A DNA stretch of 64,000 bases from Haloarchaeobius salinus (GTDB lineage Archaea > Halobacteriota > Halobacteria > Halobacteriales > Natrialbaceae), in assembly GCF_024464185.1 (NCBI RefSeq), contig NZ_JANHAU010000002.1:744001-808000 (forward strand). The letters run 5' to 3'. Positions 34,817 to 46,750 of the stretch are shown piece after piece (positions within the stretch are counted from its first letter, which is position 1; every line of letters starts with the position of its first letter). Both the position numbers and the translations under genes were made by a program. A model generated the notes under the pieces. The model was given only the letters and a program-made list of their open reading frames with translations. It ran no database searches and had not been told where the DNA came from.

Positions 34817-35377
34817 CTACTGCGGGGTCTCGTAGTCGCCGCCGTACCGGAGGAACAGGTACGCGAGCGAGAGCGTCGTCAGCATGGCCGCGACGGTACC
34901 GACGGCGAGCGACATCGCGCTGTCGGGCAACGTCGGACCGCCGCCGCCGCTGGACGGCGGGGAACCGGTCTCGTTGACGATGATGGTACCGACCATACCG
35001 AGTCCGGCGTGGGGCGTGCACTCGTACTCGTAGGTGCCCATCGTCTCGAACGTGTGTTCGTACGTGAATCCGGTGTTCTCCGTGGGCTGGTGGCCCTCCC
35101 AGGTCGCGCCATCCGGAACCGACGTGGGGGCGATGTTGTGGTTGTCCGACTGCCAGTTGAACGTCACCGTCGTCCCCGGTGCGATGTAGAGTGGCTCCTC
35201 CGTACCGGGTGTGTACACGTAGTCGCCGTCCGGGCCGACCGCGACGGTCGCGCTGCCGCCGCCGCCACCGCCTTCGCCCTCCTGTGCGGTCGCGACGCCT
35301 GCGGACGCGGCGGCGGCCGTCGCGCCGGCCGCTCCCTGCAGGAATCGCCGACGCGAGACCGGTGTGTCTGAGTTCAT
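34817..35377 (-). CDS. Halocyanin-type blue copper protein, membrane anchored (copy outside bc cluster)
   Basis: A 186-residue protein. A twin-arginine signal (SRRRFLQGAAGATAAAA) leads to export in folded form. A plastocyanin-like domain spans about 42-135; copper ligands are His in SDNHNI, Cys and His in ECTPHAGLGM and the terminal Met of that loop. A proline/glycine linker and one C-terminal helix (about 152-174) anchor it. It should carry electrons at the outer face of the membrane. It is very similar to the halocyanin at 46.1 kb in the bc cluster. It stands alone, between the second Trk operon and an M42 peptidase. Confidence 0.92.
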   Translation of the reverse strand: MNSDTPVSRRRFLQGAAGATAAAASAGVATAQEGEGGGGGGSATVAVGPDGDYVYTPGTEEPLYIAPGTTVTFNWQSDNHNIAPTSVPDGATWEGHQPTENTGFTYEHTFETMGTYEYECTPHAGLGMVGTIIVNETGSPPSSGGGGPTLPDSAMSLAVGTVAAMLTTLSLAYLFLRYGGDYETPQ

Positions 35378-39264: not shown

Positions 39265-39426
39265 ACATCGCCCTGGGCTCGTTTCGGTGTGGAATTTACA
39301 GCCATATTTATATGCTGTTCGGGACTCGGTCAGAAATTGTCGATGAACGCCCGCGGTACTCTGACGATTCGTAACTCGTGCGCCGGAGTCACAACCCTTA
39401 CGCGGGGGCGCATCGAGGGGGCGGAC

Positions 39427-40752
39427 ATGAGCAACTGGATCGGTCGCACCTTCACGAGCGACACCGGGTGGGACCACCTCGAGACGCTGGTCGACGTCGG
39501 CAACCGCATGGCCGGCAGCGATGGCGAACGCGCCGCTGCGGAGGCAACGCGCGACGCGCTCGCCGAGGCAGGCGCACGCGATGCACACCTCGACGAGTTC
39601 GAGATACAGGGCTGGGAGCGTGGCGACAGCGAGATTCGAGCCGCCGACGCGACCTACGCCGACGCACACGAGTGCATCGCGCTCCCACGCAGCCCGGCCG
39701 ACGAGGTCGCCGGGGAGCTCGTCGATCTCGGCCACGGCCTCCCCGAGGACTTCGAGGGGACCGACTGCGAGGGCAAGGTCGTCATCGCCCGGAGCGACGT
39801 CCCCGAACACTACGACCGCTACCTCCACCGCCGGGAGAAGTACTACCACGCCGTCGAGGCGGGTGCCGCCGCGTTCGTCTACCGGAACCACGTCGAGGGC
39901 TGTCTCCCACCGACGGGCTCCGTCGGGACCGACGAGTCACCGGTCGGCGACATCCCCGCCGTCGGCGTCTCCGCCGAGACGGGCGCGCAGCTGGTCCGCC
40001 GGCACGAGGGCGAGGCGCTCACCGTCGCCGTCAGTGCCGAGACGCCCACTGCCACCAGCCAGAACGTCCACGCCGAGCTCGGCCCCGACACCGACGAGGT
40101 CGTCTACGTCACCAGCCACGTCGACGCCCACGACATCTCCACGGGCGCGATGGACAACGGCGCGGGCACCGCGATGGTCGTCGAGCTCGCACGCATCCTC
40201 GCCGACCTCGAGGCCGACCTCGAGACCCGCGTCCGCTTCGTCGCCTTCGGTGCCGAGGAGGTGGGGCTCGTCGGGTCCGCGCACGAGGCCGACCGCGTCG
40301 ACCTCGACGACGTGAAGGTCGTGGTCAACGCAGACGGCGTCGCCCAGGGCCGCGACCTCGCGCTCTACACCCACGGCTTCGACGAACTCGACGACGCCGT
40401 CGAGACCGTCGCCGACCGTTTCGAACACCCCGTCGAGACCGTCCCGAAGCTCGGTCCCCACAGCGACCACTGGCCGTTCACGAAGTGGGGCGTCCCCGGC
40501 TACCACGCCTACGGCAAGTCCGGCGGCTCGGGCCGCGGCTGGGGCCACACCCACGCCGACACCCTCGACAAGCTCGAGGTACGGGACCTCCGCGAGCAGG
40601 CCATTCTGCTGGCCGCACTCACCGTCCAGGTCGCGGCCGAGTCGTTCGAGATTCCGCACAAGGAGCCCGAGGAGATCGCCGAGGCCCTCGAGGACGAGGA
40701 CCTCGCCGAGGGCATGAAGATCACCGGCGACTGGCCCTACGGCGAGGACTGA
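39427..40752 (+). CDS. M28 family zinc peptidase (with PA domain)
   Basis: A 441-residue protein. A PA-like insert lies at about 95-205. Zinc site residues appear in order: His/Asp in TSHVDAHD, Asp in GAMDNGAG, Glu-Glu in GAEEVGLVG, Asp in VVNADGVA, His in HTHADTLDK. It should be an aminopeptidase; no signal peptide is visible, so it is cytosolic. The start at 39427 gives MSNWIGRTFTSDTGW; a longer in-frame reading from 39289 runs through the promoter region. Confidence 0.92.
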   Translation: MSNWIGRTFTSDTGWDHLETLVDVGNRMAGSDGERAAAEATRDALAEAGARDAHLDEFEIQGWERGDSEIRAADATYADAHECIALPRSPADEVAGELVDLGHGLPEDFEGTDCEGKVVIARSDVPEHYDRYLHRREKYYHAVEAGAAAFVYRNHVEGCLPPTGSVGTDESPVGDIPAVGVSAETGAQLVRRHEGEALTVAVSAETPTATSQNVHAELGPDTDEVVYVTSHVDAHDISTGAMDNGAGTAMVVELARILADLEADLETRVRFVAFGAEEVGLVGSAHEADRVDLDDVKVVVNADGVAQGRDLALYTHGFDELDDAVETVADRFEHPVETVPKLGPHSDHWPFTKWGVPGYHAYGKSGGSGRGWGHTHADTLDKLEVRDLREQAILLAALTVQVAAESFEIPHKEPEEIAEALEDEDLAEGMKITGDWPYGED

Positions 40753-41028: not shown

Positions 41029-41787
41029 ATGGAGAGTGCCGCCCGCGACAGCGACGAGCCGCCGACCGTCGGCGTCGTCGGGGCAGAGCAGGACACGGTC
41101 GAACGCATCAGGGCCGCCGTCGCGGAGGCGAACGCGGTCCCGCTGGCTGGCGACGCGACCAGCGTCGGTGACGCGGCGTTCGTCGTCGCCGGCGGCGAGC
41201 GGGCGCTCGGCGAGCTGGCGAGCGCGGAAGTCGACGTGCCGGTGCTGGCGGTCGATGCGGGCGCTGGCGTCCGGTCGGTGGCTGCCGCGGACGCGTCGGC
41301 TGCCATCGCGGCCGTCCTCGACGACGAGATAGCGCGGACCACGCGGCGCGCGTTCGCGGTCCGCGTCGGCGACGAACGCCACCAGGCGGTGTTCGACGTG
41401 ACGCTCGTGACGACCGAGCCGGCGCGCATCTCGGAGTACTGCGTGGCGGCCGGCGGCGAGGTGGTCTCGCAGTTCCGGGCGGACGGCGTCGTCGTCGCCA
41501 CGCCGGCCGGGAGCCGCGGCTACGCCCGCGCTGCGGGTGGGCCGGTCGTCGCCGGAACCGCGCCGGTCGCCGCGGTCGTGCCGATCGCGCCCTTCGCCAT
41601 CGACACGAACCACTGGGTCGTCTCGAACGAGGACGTGGTCCTCTCGGTCGAGCGCGACGAGGGCAGCGTCTCGCTGCTCGTCGACGACCGGGCCGTGGGC
41701 ACGGTCGACCCGGCGGCACCGGTCCGACTGTCGCCCGGGCACGAACTCGAACTGCTCTGTCCACCCGGGAGCCAGCCACCGTGGTAG
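41029..41787 (+). CDS. NAD kinase-like protein lacking the GGDGT motif
   Basis: A 252-residue protein. The C-terminal half is the NAD kinase beta-sandwich (RADGVVVATPAGSRGYARAAGGPVV split around residue 155-180 corresponds to the DGxxVATPTGSTAY region). In the N-terminal half, where NAD kinases have GGDGT, this protein has GGERA (about residue 56), and TPTGST is TPAGSR. The GGDGT aspartate is needed for ATP and catalysis, so activity is doubtful. It may be a paralogue that binds NAD(H) for regulation. Start set at 41029, about 30 bp after a T-rich TATA-like element. Confidence 0.8.
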   Translation: MESAARDSDEPPTVGVVGAEQDTVERIRAAVAEANAVPLAGDATSVGDAAFVVAGGERALGELASAEVDVPVLAVDAGAGVRSVAAADASAAIAAVLDDEIARTTRRAFAVRVGDERHQAVFDVTLVTTEPARISEYCVAAGGEVVSQFRADGVVVATPAGSRGYARAAGGPVVAGTAPVAAVVPIAPFAIDTNHWVVSNEDVVLSVERDEGSVSLLVDDRAVGTVDPAAPVRLSPGHELELLCPPGSQPPW

Positions 41788-41832: not shown

Positions 41833-42288
41833 ATGGACCCAAACGTGATGCTCGGCCCGCTCGACCAGCTCGGGCGCGAGGTCGTCGCAGGCGTGCTGGT
41901 TATCGAGTTCGTCCTGTTCGGACTCGTCGTCACCAACATGCTGACCCGATTCCTCGCGTACCGCCGTAACGTCGCCGAGGCGGCCGAGGAGGACGTCGAG
42001 TCGCTGAGTCGGCACCCGCTGCACGAGGCGACGAACGTGCTCCTCCTGCTCGGAACGTTCTACTACACCACCTACGAGCCCCACGGCGGCATCGTCCTCT
42101 CGATGTTCATCGTCGGCCTCGTCATCACCGACGTCTTCGAACACGAGGTCCGCAGCGTCGACCTCCGCAAGGACGACAAACTCCGCGCACCGAAGGGTGC
42201 CCTCGGAATCTCCGTGTTCACGCTCGCCTACGCCGGCTTCCAGTCCCTGTTCTTCCTCGTCTCGGACTACTGGGGCGCTATCGTCTGA
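41833..42288 (+). CDS. Conserved haloarchaeal membrane protein (DUF7313-type)
   Basis: A 151-residue protein with four hydrophobic helices (about 20-40, 66-85, 88-108, 126-146). An acidic soluble loop (AEAAEEDVESLSRHPLHEA) separates the first two. No catalytic motif is visible. I recall this family as DUF7313, found beside the bc-type complex genes; it lies convergent to that cluster here. Role unknown, possibly assembly or quinone-side partner. Confidence 0.78.
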   Translation: MDPNVMLGPLDQLGREVVAGVLVIEFVLFGLVVTNMLTRFLAYRRNVAEAAEEDVESLSRHPLHEATNVLLLLGTFYYTTYEPHGGIVLSMFIVGLVITDVFEHEVRSVDLRKDDKLRAPKGALGISVFTLAYAGFQSLFFLVSDYWGAIV

Positions 42289-42637: not shown

Positions 42638-42895
42638 TTAGTTGGCGAACCGTGCGCGCGCCTGGCGTGCCATCGGGAGGACGACCCAGAACGTCAGCGC
42701 ACCCAGGATCATGAACCAGAAGAGGCCCTCCTTGACGATGAGGGCGATCGCCTCCAGTGCGCTCGGGTCCGCCGGGTCCGCACCGAGGAGCTGGGTGTCC
42801 TCGAAGCCGGGGGTGTTGTACCAGCCGGCGAGCACCATCCAGATGAGGCCGGAGGCCGTCGCGATGGCCAGGCCCTTCATGAATTCGTCAGCCAT
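42638..42895 (-). CDS. Small two-helix membrane protein of the bc cluster (DUF7314-type)
   Basis: An 85-residue protein with helices at about 8-24 and 54-74 (GLFWFMILGALTFWVVLP). No motif of known function. Its start overlaps the preceding gene by eight bases and it is the last gene of the eight-gene bc cluster, so it is likely a small subunit or assembly partner. I recall the family as DUF7314. Confidence 0.8.
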   Translation of the reverse strand: MADEFMKGLAIATASGLIWMVLAGWYNTPGFEDTQLLGADPADPSALEAIALIVKEGLFWFMILGALTFWVVLPMARQARARFAN

Positions 42896-43229
42896 TGTCG
42901 GATTCTTCGTCGGTGTCGTCTTTAGACTTTCCCATTCCCGCGGTCCGGAAGCGCGTTGAGAACGCGTAGATGGCCGCGCCCGCGACGATGAGACCGAGCC
43001 CGAACAACGCGAGCACCAGGTTCACCTCCGAGAGCGCCGCGCTCGCGTTGTTCGTCGCGGTGTCGAGCACGATGAACCCGAGGATGACGCCCGTCATCGC
43101 GAGCATGGTCGCGAACACCGTGACCGTCTTGTACAGCCGCATGGGCACCTCGACCTCGCGGCTGCGGAAGCCCGACGACTCCTCGGACGCTGGTGATTCG
43201 GGCGGCTCTCCGGTGTCTGCGTCGTCCAT
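42888..43229 (-). CDS. Two-helix membrane protein of the bc cluster (DUF7315-type)
   Basis: A 113-residue protein. An acidic N-terminal tail (DDADTGEPPESPASEE) is followed by helices at about 33-54 and 67-89 and a basic then acidic C-terminus. Function unknown; conserved next to cytochrome b genes in haloarchaea (I recall DUF7315). It follows the second cytochrome b gene by 16 bp. Confidence 0.8.
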   Translation of the reverse strand: MDDADTGEPPESPASEESSGFRSREVEVPMRLYKTVTVFATMLAMTGVILGFIVLDTATNNASAALSEVNLVLALFGLGLIVAGAAIYAFSTRFRTAGMGKSKDDTDEESDNG

Positions 43230-43245
43230 GGGAGGAAGGAGGTGG

Positions 43246-44010
43246 TTACTTCGGCGGCCGGAGACGGTAGTACCGGCGGTTCAGGCTGTACATGTACCCC
43301 TCCTGCATCGCCCGGAGCACCGTGTAGGCGATGAGTCCCAGCACGGGCGGGATGAGGAACGTCAGGTCGAACAGCAGGTGCGAGTCCATCGGCAGCAGGT
43401 TCTTGACCGACAGCGCGGCGATGGTGAACGCGAAGGCGACACCCATGACGCCGATACCGGCCCAGAACGGCTGCTCGACGGGGCGGCGCGCGCTCCCCTT
43501 GTTGAGGAACGGCACTATCGCGATGAAGCCGACGACGACGATGTTCGCGACGACACCGTAGGTGCGGTCGGCCATCAGCTTGCTGCCGCCGAGGATGGAC
43601 AGCTCGGGGTTGAGCGGGCCGAGCTTCAGCAGGCCGAACGACCAGTACAGGTACCAGTCGGGCAGGATGATCGCCGGCGTCGAGGACGGGTCGGCCGGCG
43701 GGCCGATGTGCGGCGGGAGCGTGGCGGAGAGGAACAGGATGAGCCCGACGAAGAAGCTCGTCAGGGCGAAGTTCCGGATCATCTCGTGTGGCCACGCGGG
43801 GAAGCCGAGCACGTCACGCTCGACGTAGTCGGACTCCATCCGGAGGTCCTGGTCCTCGCGGCGCGCGCGCTCGAAGTACTCGTAGGTCAGCCGGGAGAGA
43901 CCCTGTGTGCGCTCCTTGCGCTCGCTCCACGTGGGGGTCTCGTCGTCCGGCGCGACGATGCCGGTACCGCTGCCGTCTGCGATGGGTTCGGAGTCGTTGT
44001 CTTCTGGCAT
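43246..44010 (-). CDS. petD: Cytochrome b C-terminal domain protein (PetD-like)
   Basis: A 254-residue protein equivalent to the C-terminal half of cytochrome b (subunit IV of b6f) with an N-terminal soluble extension of about 80 residues. The Qo-site motif appears as PDWY (ILPDWYLYWSFGLLKLG, near 116) instead of PEWY. Four or more membrane helices follow. With the cytochrome b6-like protein upstream (7-bp gap) it forms the quinol-oxidising site of the bc-type complex. PDWY is often seen in menaquinol-oxidising complexes, in line with menaquinone in haloarchaea. Confidence 0.92.
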   Translation of the reverse strand: MPEDNDSEPIADGSGTGIVAPDDETPTWSERKERTQGLSRLTYEYFERARREDQDLRMESDYVERDVLGFPAWPHEMIRNFALTSFFVGLILFLSATLPPHIGPPADPSSTPAIILPDWYLYWSFGLLKLGPLNPELSILGGSKLMADRTYGVVANIVVVGFIAIVPFLNKGSARRPVEQPFWAGIGVMGVAFAFTIAALSVKNLLPMDSHLLFDLTFLIPPVLGLIAYTVLRAMQEGYMYSLNRRYYRLRPPK

Positions 44011-44017
44011 GGTTCTA

Positions 44018-44812
44018 TCAGTGCGGTTCCGCGATACCCTGCATCCAGACGATGCCGATGTGCAGTGCGATCAGCGTCGTCACCACGAAGGGCAGGACGA
44101 ACACGTGCAGGATGTACATCCGCTGCAGCGTCGACTGCGTCAGGGTGAAGCCGCCGAAGATGAGCTGTGCGACCCACTCGCCGGCGAGCGGGATCGAGAG
44201 CGACATCTCGACACCGATCTGGCCCGCCCAGAACGCGAGCTGGTCCCACGGGAGCAGGTAGCCCGTGTAGCCGAACACCATCGTCAGGGAGATGAGGATG
44301 ATGCCGAGGATCCAGTTCAGCTCGCGGGGCTCCTTGTACGCGCCGGTGAAGTACACGCGGAGCATGTGCAGGAACACGGCCGCGACCATCACCTGTGCGG
44401 ACCAGCGATGGAGCGACCGGAGCATGAACCCGAAGTTCAGGTCCTGCATGATGAACACGATCTGGTTGTACGCCGCCGACGGGTCCCCCGCGGTCGACGG
44501 GGAGTAGTAGAATCCGAGCAGTGCACCGGAGATCGCTGCCACCACGTACGCTATCGTGGAGAACGACCCCAGCGCGTACAGCGGGTACCAGTACCAGAAC
44601 TTGTTGTCGAGGTTGTACTGCTCGGTGTGGCTCTTCGGCATCTGGAGGTTGACCTTGTAGTACAGGTCCTCCAGCAGCTCCAGGTAGTCGACGACCCGGA
44701 GGCGCTTGTCGAGCCAGATGAGCGTCATCAGGTACGTCTTCTCGACGGGGGTGAGGTCCTTCGTCTTCATCCACCCCGTGTGGTCGTACTCGTCTTTCTT
44801 TTGCAGACTCAT
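44018..44812 (-). CDS. petB: Cytochrome b N-terminal domain protein (b6-like)
   Basis: A 264-residue protein with four membrane helices. Two heme b His pairs are visible: LHRWSAQVMVAAVFLHMLR in the second helix and ILHVFVLPFVVTTLIALHI in the fourth. GYTGYLLPWDQ between them is the family's cd-helix region. The N-terminal 60 residues are soluble and contain TPVEKTYLMTLIWLD. It transfers electrons across the membrane between the Qo and Qi sites. Start at 44812 is fixed by the 4-bp gap to the Rieske stop. Confidence 0.94.
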   Translation of the reverse strand: MSLQKKDEYDHTGWMKTKDLTPVEKTYLMTLIWLDKRLRVVDYLELLEDLYYKVNLQMPKSHTEQYNLDNKFWYWYPLYALGSFSTIAYVVAAISGALLGFYYSPSTAGDPSAAYNQIVFIMQDLNFGFMLRSLHRWSAQVMVAAVFLHMLRVYFTGAYKEPRELNWILGIILISLTMVFGYTGYLLPWDQLAFWAGQIGVEMSLSIPLAGEWVAQLIFGGFTLTQSTLQRMYILHVFVLPFVVTTLIALHIGIVWMQGIAEPH

Positions 44813-44816
44813 GGTG

Positions 44817-45698
44817 CTAGTCCCTCGCCGGCCGCGGCAGAGCCACGAAGTTCGTGCTGATGATGTTGAACGGGTCGTACACCGACTGGTGGCACTGACA
44901 GTAGACGCGGTCGGCCGCGCCGAAGTTGGCGGCACCGGCCTGGCCCTTGAACGCCGGCACGCAGCAGAAGTGCGTGCACTTGTTCAGGTGGGCCATGACG
45001 CCGCGGTCCGTCGTGGCGGCCAGCCACTCGTTGTCCTGGGCCGCCTCCTCGATGCGGGTCGAACGGATGACCTCGATGGCCATCGTCTCGGCGGGCTCGA
45101 GCCCCTCGGAGCGCCAGCTACCGGTCGCGGGCTTGCCCATGCCGGCGGTGCCGATGCCGTTGCCCCACGTCTCGTAGTCGGCGAAGTGGCTCAGCTTCAT
45201 CCGCTGGCCACCGCTGACCTCCTCGTTCTGCCAGTCGAACTTCGAGTTCGCGTTGTACTTGAAGTAGTTGGTCAGGTCGGAGTTCTCCTCCTCCGCGTCG
45301 GGGTAGACGCCCGGATAGGTCTGGACGCCGCAGTACTGGAACCACTCCGAGGAGTACGTCTCGCCGGCGATCTCCTCACGGGCGACCATGAAGGTCCGCC
45401 CCTGCTCCTCGATCTCCTGGACCTCTGGCCAGCGGCCCTTGATGTAGAAGTCGTCCTCGCCCTCGACGGGTTCGAGTTCGATGGGGATCTGGGGCATCCC
45501 CCGCGGTGCGGGTCCGTCGGTGTTCTCGATGGCGCGGAACGTCACCGTGCCACCGCCACCGCCACTGGACGATGTCGTGCTGTTGACGGCCGCTGCGCCC
45601 GCTGTAGCGATGCCGGCGAGCGATGCGCCACCGACGACGCCCTTCACGAAGCGACGACGGTCCGATTCGACCGGATACTTGTCTTCGTCTACTGGCAT
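44817..45698 (-). CDS. petA: Rieske iron-sulfur protein
   Basis: A 293-residue protein. A twin-arginine signal/anchor (SDRRRFVKGVVGGASLAG) lies at residues 12-29. The 2Fe-2S ligands are in CTHFCC (near 241) and CQCHQSVYDP (near 266). It takes electrons from quinol at the Qo site and passes them, probably directly, to the halocyanin encoded two genes upstream, as no cytochrome c1 or f gene is present. A large soluble part (about 50-235) without close bacterial counterpart precedes the cluster domain. Confidence 0.94.
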   Translation of the reverse strand: MPVDEDKYPVESDRRRFVKGVVGGASLAGIATAGAAAVNSTTSSSGGGGGTVTFRAIENTDGPAPRGMPQIPIELEPVEGEDDFYIKGRWPEVQEIEEQGRTFMVAREEIAGETYSSEWFQYCGVQTYPGVYPDAEEENSDLTNYFKYNANSKFDWQNEEVSGGQRMKLSHFADYETWGNGIGTAGMGKPATGSWRSEGLEPAETMAIEVIRSTRIEEAAQDNEWLAATTDRGVMAHLNKCTHFCCVPAFKGQAGAANFGAADRVYCQCHQSVYDPFNIISTNFVALPRPARD

Positions 45699-45700
45699 GG

Positions 45701-46090
45701 TTATTTCTTGTAGTAGGGATACACCGCACGTTTGAGTGTGTCGAGCGCGCTTGCGTCGCCGAGCTGCTCGCCGTCGACGTCCTCCTCGCGGACGTAGAGG
45801 TCCTCCCACTTCCGACGGCGCTTCTTGACGATCATCACGTCTGGCAGGAACTCCTTGCGGTAGAGCAGGAGGATGAACGCGAGGTCGATGAAGACGATGG
45901 CGAGCAGGAACCCGAGGTACATGTTCCCCTCACCGCTCAGTCCCCAGCCGTTGACCAGGCCGTACGTGAACAGTCCGATGAAGACGACCTCGATGACGGT
46001 CAGCAGGACGATGGCGACCGCTGCGGCCGTGCTCTCTCTCGCCGGTTCGTACCGGTGGATGTCGCCGTAGTTGCTTCCTTTCGTGGACAT
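45701..46090 (-). CDS. Two-helix membrane protein between halocyanin and Rieske genes (DUF7318-type)
   Basis: A 129-residue protein with two helices (about 23-46, 56-77) and a basic then acidic C-terminal cytosolic tail (KKRRRKWEDLYVREEDVD). No cofactor-binding residues stand out. Its position between halocyanin and Rieske genes, 2-3 bp from each, strongly suggests it is part of the complex. I recall the family as DUF7318. Confidence 0.82.
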   Translation of the reverse strand: MSTKGSNYGDIHRYEPARESTAAAVAIVLLTVIEVVFIGLFTYGLVNGWGLSGEGNMYLGFLLAIVFIDLAFILLLYRKEFLPDVMIVKKRRRKWEDLYVREEDVDGEQLGDASALDTLKRAVYPYYKK

Positions 46091-46093
46091 CTA

Positions 46094-46750
46094 TCAGTCC
46101 CTCCCTGGGCTGCTCGTGTGTGCGGACTCGCCGTACTTGAGCACGTAGAACGTGAACATCAGCGAGCTCATGATGGCGAGGATGGTCGCGATGCCGACCC
46201 AGTGGGCCTGGATGGGAACGCCCATGTGCTCGGGGTCGACCTCGCCGCCACCTTCGCCGCCCGGTGCCTGACCGGACTCGTTGACCTCGATGGTGCCGAC
46301 CATGCCGAGGCCGACGTGGGGGTCGCACTGGTACTCGTAGGTACCGAGCGTCTCGAAGGTGTACTCGTACGTGAACCCGGTATTCTCGGTGGGCATGTGA
46401 CCCTCCCAGTCCGACTCTTCGGGGACCGACGTGGGGTTGATGTTGTGGTTGTCCGACTCCCACTCGAACGTCACCGTCGTCCCCGGACTGATGTAGAGTG
46501 GCGTCTCCGTACCAGGTGTGTACACGTAGTCGCCGTTCGGGCCGACCGCGACGGTCGCGCTACCGCCGCCACCGCCGCCGTCAGGAGCAGCGGTCGTGTT
46601 GTTGGCCGTGCCGTTGTCGGTGGAGTTGTTGCCCTCCTGGACGGCGAACGAGCCGGACGACCGTGTGTCCTCCTGGGCGGCGGCCGCACTCGCGGCTCCA
46701 GCGCCGCCGGCAACGCCGCTGGCAGCCATCAGAAAGTCCCGCCTATTCAT
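46094..46750 (-). CDS. Halocyanin-type blue copper protein of the bc cluster
   Basis: A 218-residue protein with a short N-terminal signal (MNRRDFLMAASGVAGGAGAA, twin arginine), a Ser/Thr/Asn-rich linker, the plastocyanin-like domain at about 65-160 with copper ligands His in SDNHNI, Cys and His in QCDPHVGLGM and its Met, and a C-terminal helix (about 180-203). It should accept electrons from the Rieske protein and hand them to a terminal oxidase. A TATA (GTTTAAGC on minus, 46776-46783) is about 28 bp from the ATG, so it heads a leaderless transcript into the complex genes. Confidence 0.93.
   Translation of the reverse strand: MNRRDFLMAASGVAGGAGAASAAAAQEDTRSSGSFAVQEGNNSTDNGTANNTTAAPDGGGGGGSATVAVGPNGDYVYTPGTETPLYISPGTTVTFEWESDNHNINPTSVPEESDWEGHMPTENTGFTYEYTFETLGTYEYQCDPHVGLGMVGTIEVNESGQAPGGEGGGEVDPEHMGVPIQAHWVGIATILAIMSSLMFTFYVLKYGESAHTSSPGRD

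Follow-up and report, generated by a model that had tools for sequence, protein, structure and literature searches.

A conserved haloarchaeal NAD kinase paralogue that has lost its catalytic residues is a probable non-catalytic subunit of a heteromeric NAD kinase

Known NAD kinases are described as homo-oligomers, mostly encoded by a single gene, and the dimer is reported to be required to assemble the active site (PMC8553519). The closest known relatives of the protein studied here are the prokaryotic ATP/poly(P)-NAD kinases: A. fulgidus NAD kinase (Afnk; 1suw/1z0s), M. tuberculosis Ppnk and L. monocytogenes NADK1. In Ppnk the elements of Asp-85, Asn-159 and Thr-200 are reported to be essential by mutagenesis, and Asp-189 and Arg-187, as well as Asp-145 of the A. 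fulgidus enzyme, are contributed by the adjacent subunit; a figure legend in the same source gives Gly at position 187 of Ppnk (PMC8553519). Human NADK interface mutants are reported to lose activity, with R356A and Y327A abolishing it, and Cys349, Leu353 and Arg356 sit at the tetramer interface (PMC12052686).

H. volcanii encodes two paralogues, both listed as probable NAD kinases. The second, HVO_0837 (nadK2), is 25% identical to nadK1, and its use of ATP versus polyphosphate is listed as unresolved; in its passages on these genes, this account mentions neither motif loss nor a complex (PMC8305020). An inactive paralogue that activates its partner has a precedent in the trypanosomatid deoxyhypusine synthase, a different enzyme in a different organism, the complex of which has been shown experimentally (PMC3663545), whereas we infer that of the haloarchaeal proteins from genomes. 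Searching the openly licensed literature, mostly at summary level and without supplements, we found no description of a heteromeric NAD kinase or of motif loss in haloarchaeal NadK2.

We have analysed a 64,000-nucleotide stretch of Haloarchaeobius salinus DNA (the window), in which an open reading frame with an ATG start encodes a 252-amino-acid protein, here called NadK2. We take it to be the probable orthologue of HVO_0837, as the second haloarchaeal NAD kinase paralogue. The start codon is backed by Haloarchaeobius iranensis (83% identity) and Haloarchaeobius sp. FL176 (81%), both aligning from residue 1. The gene and the segments discussed below are as follows.

41029..41787 (+): NadK2 open reading frame
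41191..41205 (+): residues 55-59, GGERA replacing GGDGT; GDG loop in 0/102 orthologues
41392..41397 (+): residues 122-123, F-D replacing N-E, from an ungapped alignment to A. fulgidus NAD kinase
41476..41487 (+): residues 150-153, RADG, with Arg150 and Asp152 corresponding to Ppnk 187 and 189; 102/102 orthologues
41500..41523 (+): residues 158-165, TPAGSRGY replacing TPTGSTAY; catalytic Thr gone, Tyr165 retained
41581..41616 (+): residues 185-196, PIAPF...W, shared by NadK2 and the ancestral-type enzymes but lost from NadK1

NadK2 matches the Pfam model NAD_kinase_C (PF20143) at 1.6e-14 (54.1 bits against a cut-off of 23.7), and no match to PF01513, the NAD kinase N-domain model, was found at E<=1. 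Despite this missing match, the alignment of a NadK2 family profile (31 rows) with solved NAD kinases, which the profile recovers at up to 1.2e-22, extends into the N-terminal domain. On the homology of its C-terminal domain, NadK2 is assigned to the NAD kinase fold/superfamily. These matches bear out the initial annotation, which had read the protein as an NAD kinase homologue without GGDGT; the two substitutions that it named, GGERA for GGDGT and TPAGSR for TPTGST, are indeed present, and to them we add a loss that it did not mention, that of the Asn of the NE motif (F122-D123). An AlphaFold prediction of NadK2 on a three-row alignment (the window protein and its two Haloarchaeobius homologues) had a pLDDT of 31.

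Among 102 NadK2 orthologues (60 genera, nine families), all three catalytic elements that we tested are absent in 96. GDG occurs in no ungapped loop, Asn122 is found in 0/102, and Thr163, at the position of Ppnk Thr 200, in 6/102, the window protein not among them. The first Gly of GGERA is itself rare (3/94 orthologues), VGExA being the commonest form there. The losses in NadK2 thus set it apart from the prokaryotic NAD kinases in GGDGT, the NE Asn and the catalytic Thr; what it shares with them is the acid of the NE/D motif (Asp123, 101/102), Tyr165 (Ppnk 202; 100/102) and Asp152. The residues on the partner side are conserved throughout: Arg150 and Asp152 in 102/102 each, Pro185 in 100/102, Phe or Tyr at 189 in 102/102 and Trp196 in 101/102. 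Asp152 aligns gap-free with Afnk 145, the Asp given to the neighbouring subunit. By residue spacing from Tyr327 alone, segment 185-196 maps to human Cys349, Leu353 and Arg356.

Catalytic residues are therefore lost clade-wide in a protein that is itself conserved, and since the three lost elements are those reported as essential in Ppnk, NadK2 is unlikely to phosphorylate NAD on its own, as the initial annotation had also supposed for normal NAD phosphorylation. NadK2 might still be a kinase, acting on NAD, NADH or some other substrate, in which Glu57 takes the place of the catalytic Asp. At residue 57, 73 of the 102 orthologues have E and 11 have D, which makes 84 with an acid, although the other 18 have neither and the residue facing the catalytic Asp shifts by one between alignments (E57 in two, residue 58 in another). 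The annotation of the H. volcanii protein as an NAD kinase also speaks for activity (PMC8305020), but Asn122 and Thr163, each reported as essential in Ppnk (PMC8553519), are gone from all and from nearly all orthologues, respectively, and PF01513 finds no match in NadK2. We consider such activity very improbable and have rejected this reading on the loss of catalytic residues across the 102 orthologues.

The initial annotation had proposed looking for a canonical NAD kinase elsewhere in the genome, and had regarded the lack of any other NAD kinase as speaking against its reading. A canonical enzyme with both Pfam domains, NadK1, is encoded on a different contig from NadK2 (G000:C1:759505-760326, minus strand), and this objection falls away; the mostly single-gene NAD kinases differ from the haloarchaeal system with its two paralogues. 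We aligned NadK1 from 86 sequences (60 genera) and 13 ancestral-type enzymes from Halobacteriota. The catalytic set of NadK1 is intact (GGDG[TSN] and N122 in 86/86 each), and the partner-side set is not: Arg150 is present in 6/86 (His in 71), Pro185 in 2/86 and Trp196 in 0/86. NadK1 does retain the trans Asp152 in 84/86 and Tyr165 in 86/86. The ancestral-type enzymes (n=13) have the catalytic set and nearly the whole partner set, sharing the PAxI, RADG, PLAPF and W segments with NadK2. The residues retained are complementary, the catalytic set lying in NadK1 and Arg150 with PxxPF...W in NadK2. Ppnk with Gly at 187, together with NadK1 keeping Asp152, indicates that the partner set is not strictly required in every NAD kinase. 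An active NadK1 homo-oligomer is possible, because NadK1 keeps both Asp152 and Tyr165 and because Arg150 is not universal.

A third PF01513 protein is encoded in the same genome (L001:916-1980, minus strand, on G000:C4; 2.7e-22). It has GGDGT and is without TPTGST, and presumably resembles the AcoX-type relatives of NAD kinases.

With the NadK2 protein as query, matches at E<=1e-5 came from 288 of the 292 class genomes. Re-scoring of eighteen weak or empty genomes, together with motif checks, gave NadK2 in 282 genomes, a single GGDGT enzyme in three and only other NAD-kinase-fold proteins in seven. Conservation in 282/292 rules out local decay of a pseudogene. NadK1, sought in the same 292 genomes, is missing from exactly the seven without NadK2; the chance of a random 7/7 overlap in 289 is 3e-14, a figure that relatedness makes far too strong. 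Nine genomes added through genus searches (G533-G541) have both genes in four cases and neither in five. Over 301 haloarchaeal genomes, a count that leaves out G542, both genes are found in 286, neither in 12, one ancestral-type enzyme in three and a single member of the pair in none.

Completeness is below 90% in three of the 12 pair-less genomes (68 for G537, 72 for G539 and 89 for G540). By group, g29 accounts for five of the twelve (G014 and four others), g6 and g57 for three each and g72 for one. The absences thus span at least three lineages (g6, g29 and g57/g72) and probably represent three or four loss events rather than twelve. The three single-enzyme genomes, G021, G217 and G285, belong to the same order; their enzymes (L125, L142 and L143) have GGDGT, NE and TPTGSTAY and combine the catalytic with the partner-side residues, and neither NadK1 nor NadK2 is found there. 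The joint retention and loss of NadK1 and NadK2 suggests a single NADP-making enzyme built from the two. A NadK2 that had become a different kinase would leave unexplained why it is missing exactly where NadK1 is missing.

The two proteins also diverge together. NadK1 and NadK2 distances correlate with a Mantel r of 0.77 (73 genomes, 58 genera; 0/999 permutations), a test that leaves some phylogeny in, and the partial correlation given the M28-family peptidase, NadK2's neighbour and our sole control gene, is 0.56 (47 genomes, 0/999). The corresponding control partials are 0.27 between NadK1 and M28 when controlling for NadK2, and 0.35 between NadK2 and M28 when controlling for NadK1. We rely on this run, which used the whole hit range with length limits; a flawed one, in which split hits were truncated to single domains, gave an r of 0.60 (74 genomes) and a partial correlation of 0.23 (48 genomes, 27/999). 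A smaller set of 43 genomes gave an r of 0.83 and a partial of 0.57, with a bias in that its NadK1 sequences came mostly from a best-scoring list. The five genomes with the most diverged NadK2 (G101, G071, G002, G129 and G007) are also the five most diverged for NadK1; the first four had been picked for low NadK2 scores, their NadK1 being unselected.

In a tree of 72 rows (33 of 94 NadK2, 26 of 52 NadK1 and 13 of 13 ancestral-type sequences), the NadK1 sequences fall into a single group, as do those of NadK2 (100/100 for each); the ancestral-type enzymes branch between these two groups, which do not pair. Such a tree would fit a duplication as well as separate origins. Halobacteriota enzymes from outside the class (n=10) score 112-142 bits against the NadK2 profile and 86-107 bits against NadK1, a comparison between a profile and a single query in which bit scores are not strictly comparable. 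If NadK1 is of separate origin, the 'complementary loss' would in part be a lineage difference.

Alternatively, catalysis may not require NadK2 at all: it could be a pseudoenzyme with a regulatory or inhibitory role, binding NAD(P)(H) and modulating NadK1. The same joint presence and correlated divergence would be expected of such a protein, and the near-universal retention of the nicotinamide-stacking Tyr165 and of Asp123 fits it as well. A dispensable regulator should, however, sometimes vanish alone, and NadK1 without NadK2 occurs in 0/301 genomes; nor would regulation account for NadK1 having lost a segment that the ancestral-type enzymes have. We regard this role as unlikely, though less so than a residual kinase activity.

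The absence of the pair from the same genomes, the complementary residues and the correlated divergence are best fitted by a heteromer, and NadK2 is probably the subunit without catalytic function in an NAD kinase heteromer whose catalytic subunit would be NadK1. NadK1 would give the catalytic half-site (the GGDGT Asp, NE, Thr and Tyr), and NadK2 would give or stabilise the partner half-site (Arg150, Asp152 and the PIAPF...W segment). The heteromer would contain two kinds of site, of which only one would be functional. The physical NadK1-NadK2 complex, its stoichiometry and its effect on activity are what we infer from these patterns. NadK2 is a candidate for the prozyme type: its catalytic residues are lost across the clade, and it is present only with an active paralogue.

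What stands in for the pair where it is missing is in most cases another type of NAD kinase. The five proteins of this type that we scanned against Pfam (from G014, G043, G117, G199 and G533) have an NAD kinase at the N-terminus fused to an inositol monophosphatase (IMPase) at the C-terminus. The kinase part of the fusion is matched at E<=1e-40 in 44/292 genomes, the IMPase domain having been scanned in the five proteins only, and this type of kinase is present in six of the seven pair-less genomes versus 38/285 others (Fisher p 5e-5). In the remaining pair-less genome, G267, only a 270-aa NAD-kinase-fold frame was seen. Group g6 holds both states: G071 and G101 have NadK1, NadK2 and this type of kinase together, and G043, G208 and G533 have this type without the pair. 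It looks as if a self-sufficient NAD kinase arrives and both paralogues then go.

The wider proposal would be that haloarchaea have divided NAD kinase between two genes, both of them obligatory, with the catalytic half-site alone surviving in one subunit and the partner half-site alone in the other. The composite sites would be asymmetric, and the pair would be dispensable only as a unit, when a self-sufficient kinase such as the NADK-IMPase fusion replaces it. This we put forward tentatively, with somewhat less than even confidence. If it is true, an essential NADP-making enzyme described as homo-oligomeric has, within one large group of archaea, turned into an obligate heteromer, with residues lost complementarily after two copies arose, a clean natural case of molecular complexity ratcheting up. 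Public records that list NadK2 as an NAD kinase would then need correcting, and haloarchaeal NadK1 assayed alone may appear weak or dead.

In the fusions at loci L066, L067, L069, L072 and L225 the kinase is N-terminal and the inositol monophosphatase C-terminal. The NCBIfam model for the bifunctional NADP phosphatase/NAD kinase has the kinase near the C-terminus (match 373-514 of 570), and the domain order of the haloarchaeal fusion looks reversed relative to it. A further NAD-kinase-fold type of 256-302 aa, with GGDGT/S and TPFGSTGY-like motifs (L070, L071, L082 and L084), occurs in G208, G267, G199 and G117; the Pfam match was weak in the two proteins scanned.

In the window, NadK2 lies among the following genes.

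39424..40752 (+): M28-family peptidase (Pfam), within 2.6 kb of NadK2 in 45/63 genomes, the commonest neighbour
41833..42288 (+): DUF7313 membrane protein (Pfam), within 2.6 kb of NadK2 in 40/63 genomes
42888..46750 (-): bc-type cluster of DUF7315, cytochrome b C- and N-parts, a Rieske-type protein, DUF7318 and halocyanin

The Rieske-type protein was named from its sequence, the frame tried giving no Pfam hit. Neighbours were counted in the 63 genomes with at least 2.6 kb of flank on each side of NadK2. The initial annotation had pointed out that the protein sits beside the bc-type respiratory genes and suggested that it may have become an NAD(H) sensor or a different kinase; an independent sensor of NAD(H) or NADP(H), serving the respiratory chain for instance, would agree with the retained NAD-site Tyr and Asp and with a bc marker lying within 2.6 kb of NadK2 in 34/63 genomes. 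At the genome level petB (E<=1e-10) is present in 223/292, and it is missing in five of the seven genomes without NadK2 versus 64/285 others (p 0.009), which also points this way. However, among the 282 genomes with NadK2, petB is found in 220 (a few of the matches weak, about 1e-30 to 1e-43) and gives no match in 62, and G014 and G199 keep petB while missing NadK2. EndoIII takes the neighbouring position in 17/63 genomes, none of which has bc genes or DUF7313 nearby. Because so many NadK2 genomes lack a petB match, NadK2 does not depend on the bc complex, and we have set aside a role as a partner or sensor of that complex; a functional link to the respiratory genes is not supported. An independent sensor would also leave the joint absence with NadK1 unexplained, and we think it about as improbable as a NadK2 that is still a kinase.

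In nine loci (L019, L027, L090, L095, L113, L117, L120, L126 and L129) DUF7313 and NadK2 are on opposite strands, so the co-directional order seen in the window is not fixed. The window also holds two similar halocyanin-like genes, one at 46094-46750 in the bc cluster and one at 34817-35377, which adjoins a Trk-like potassium transporter pair (named from sequence).
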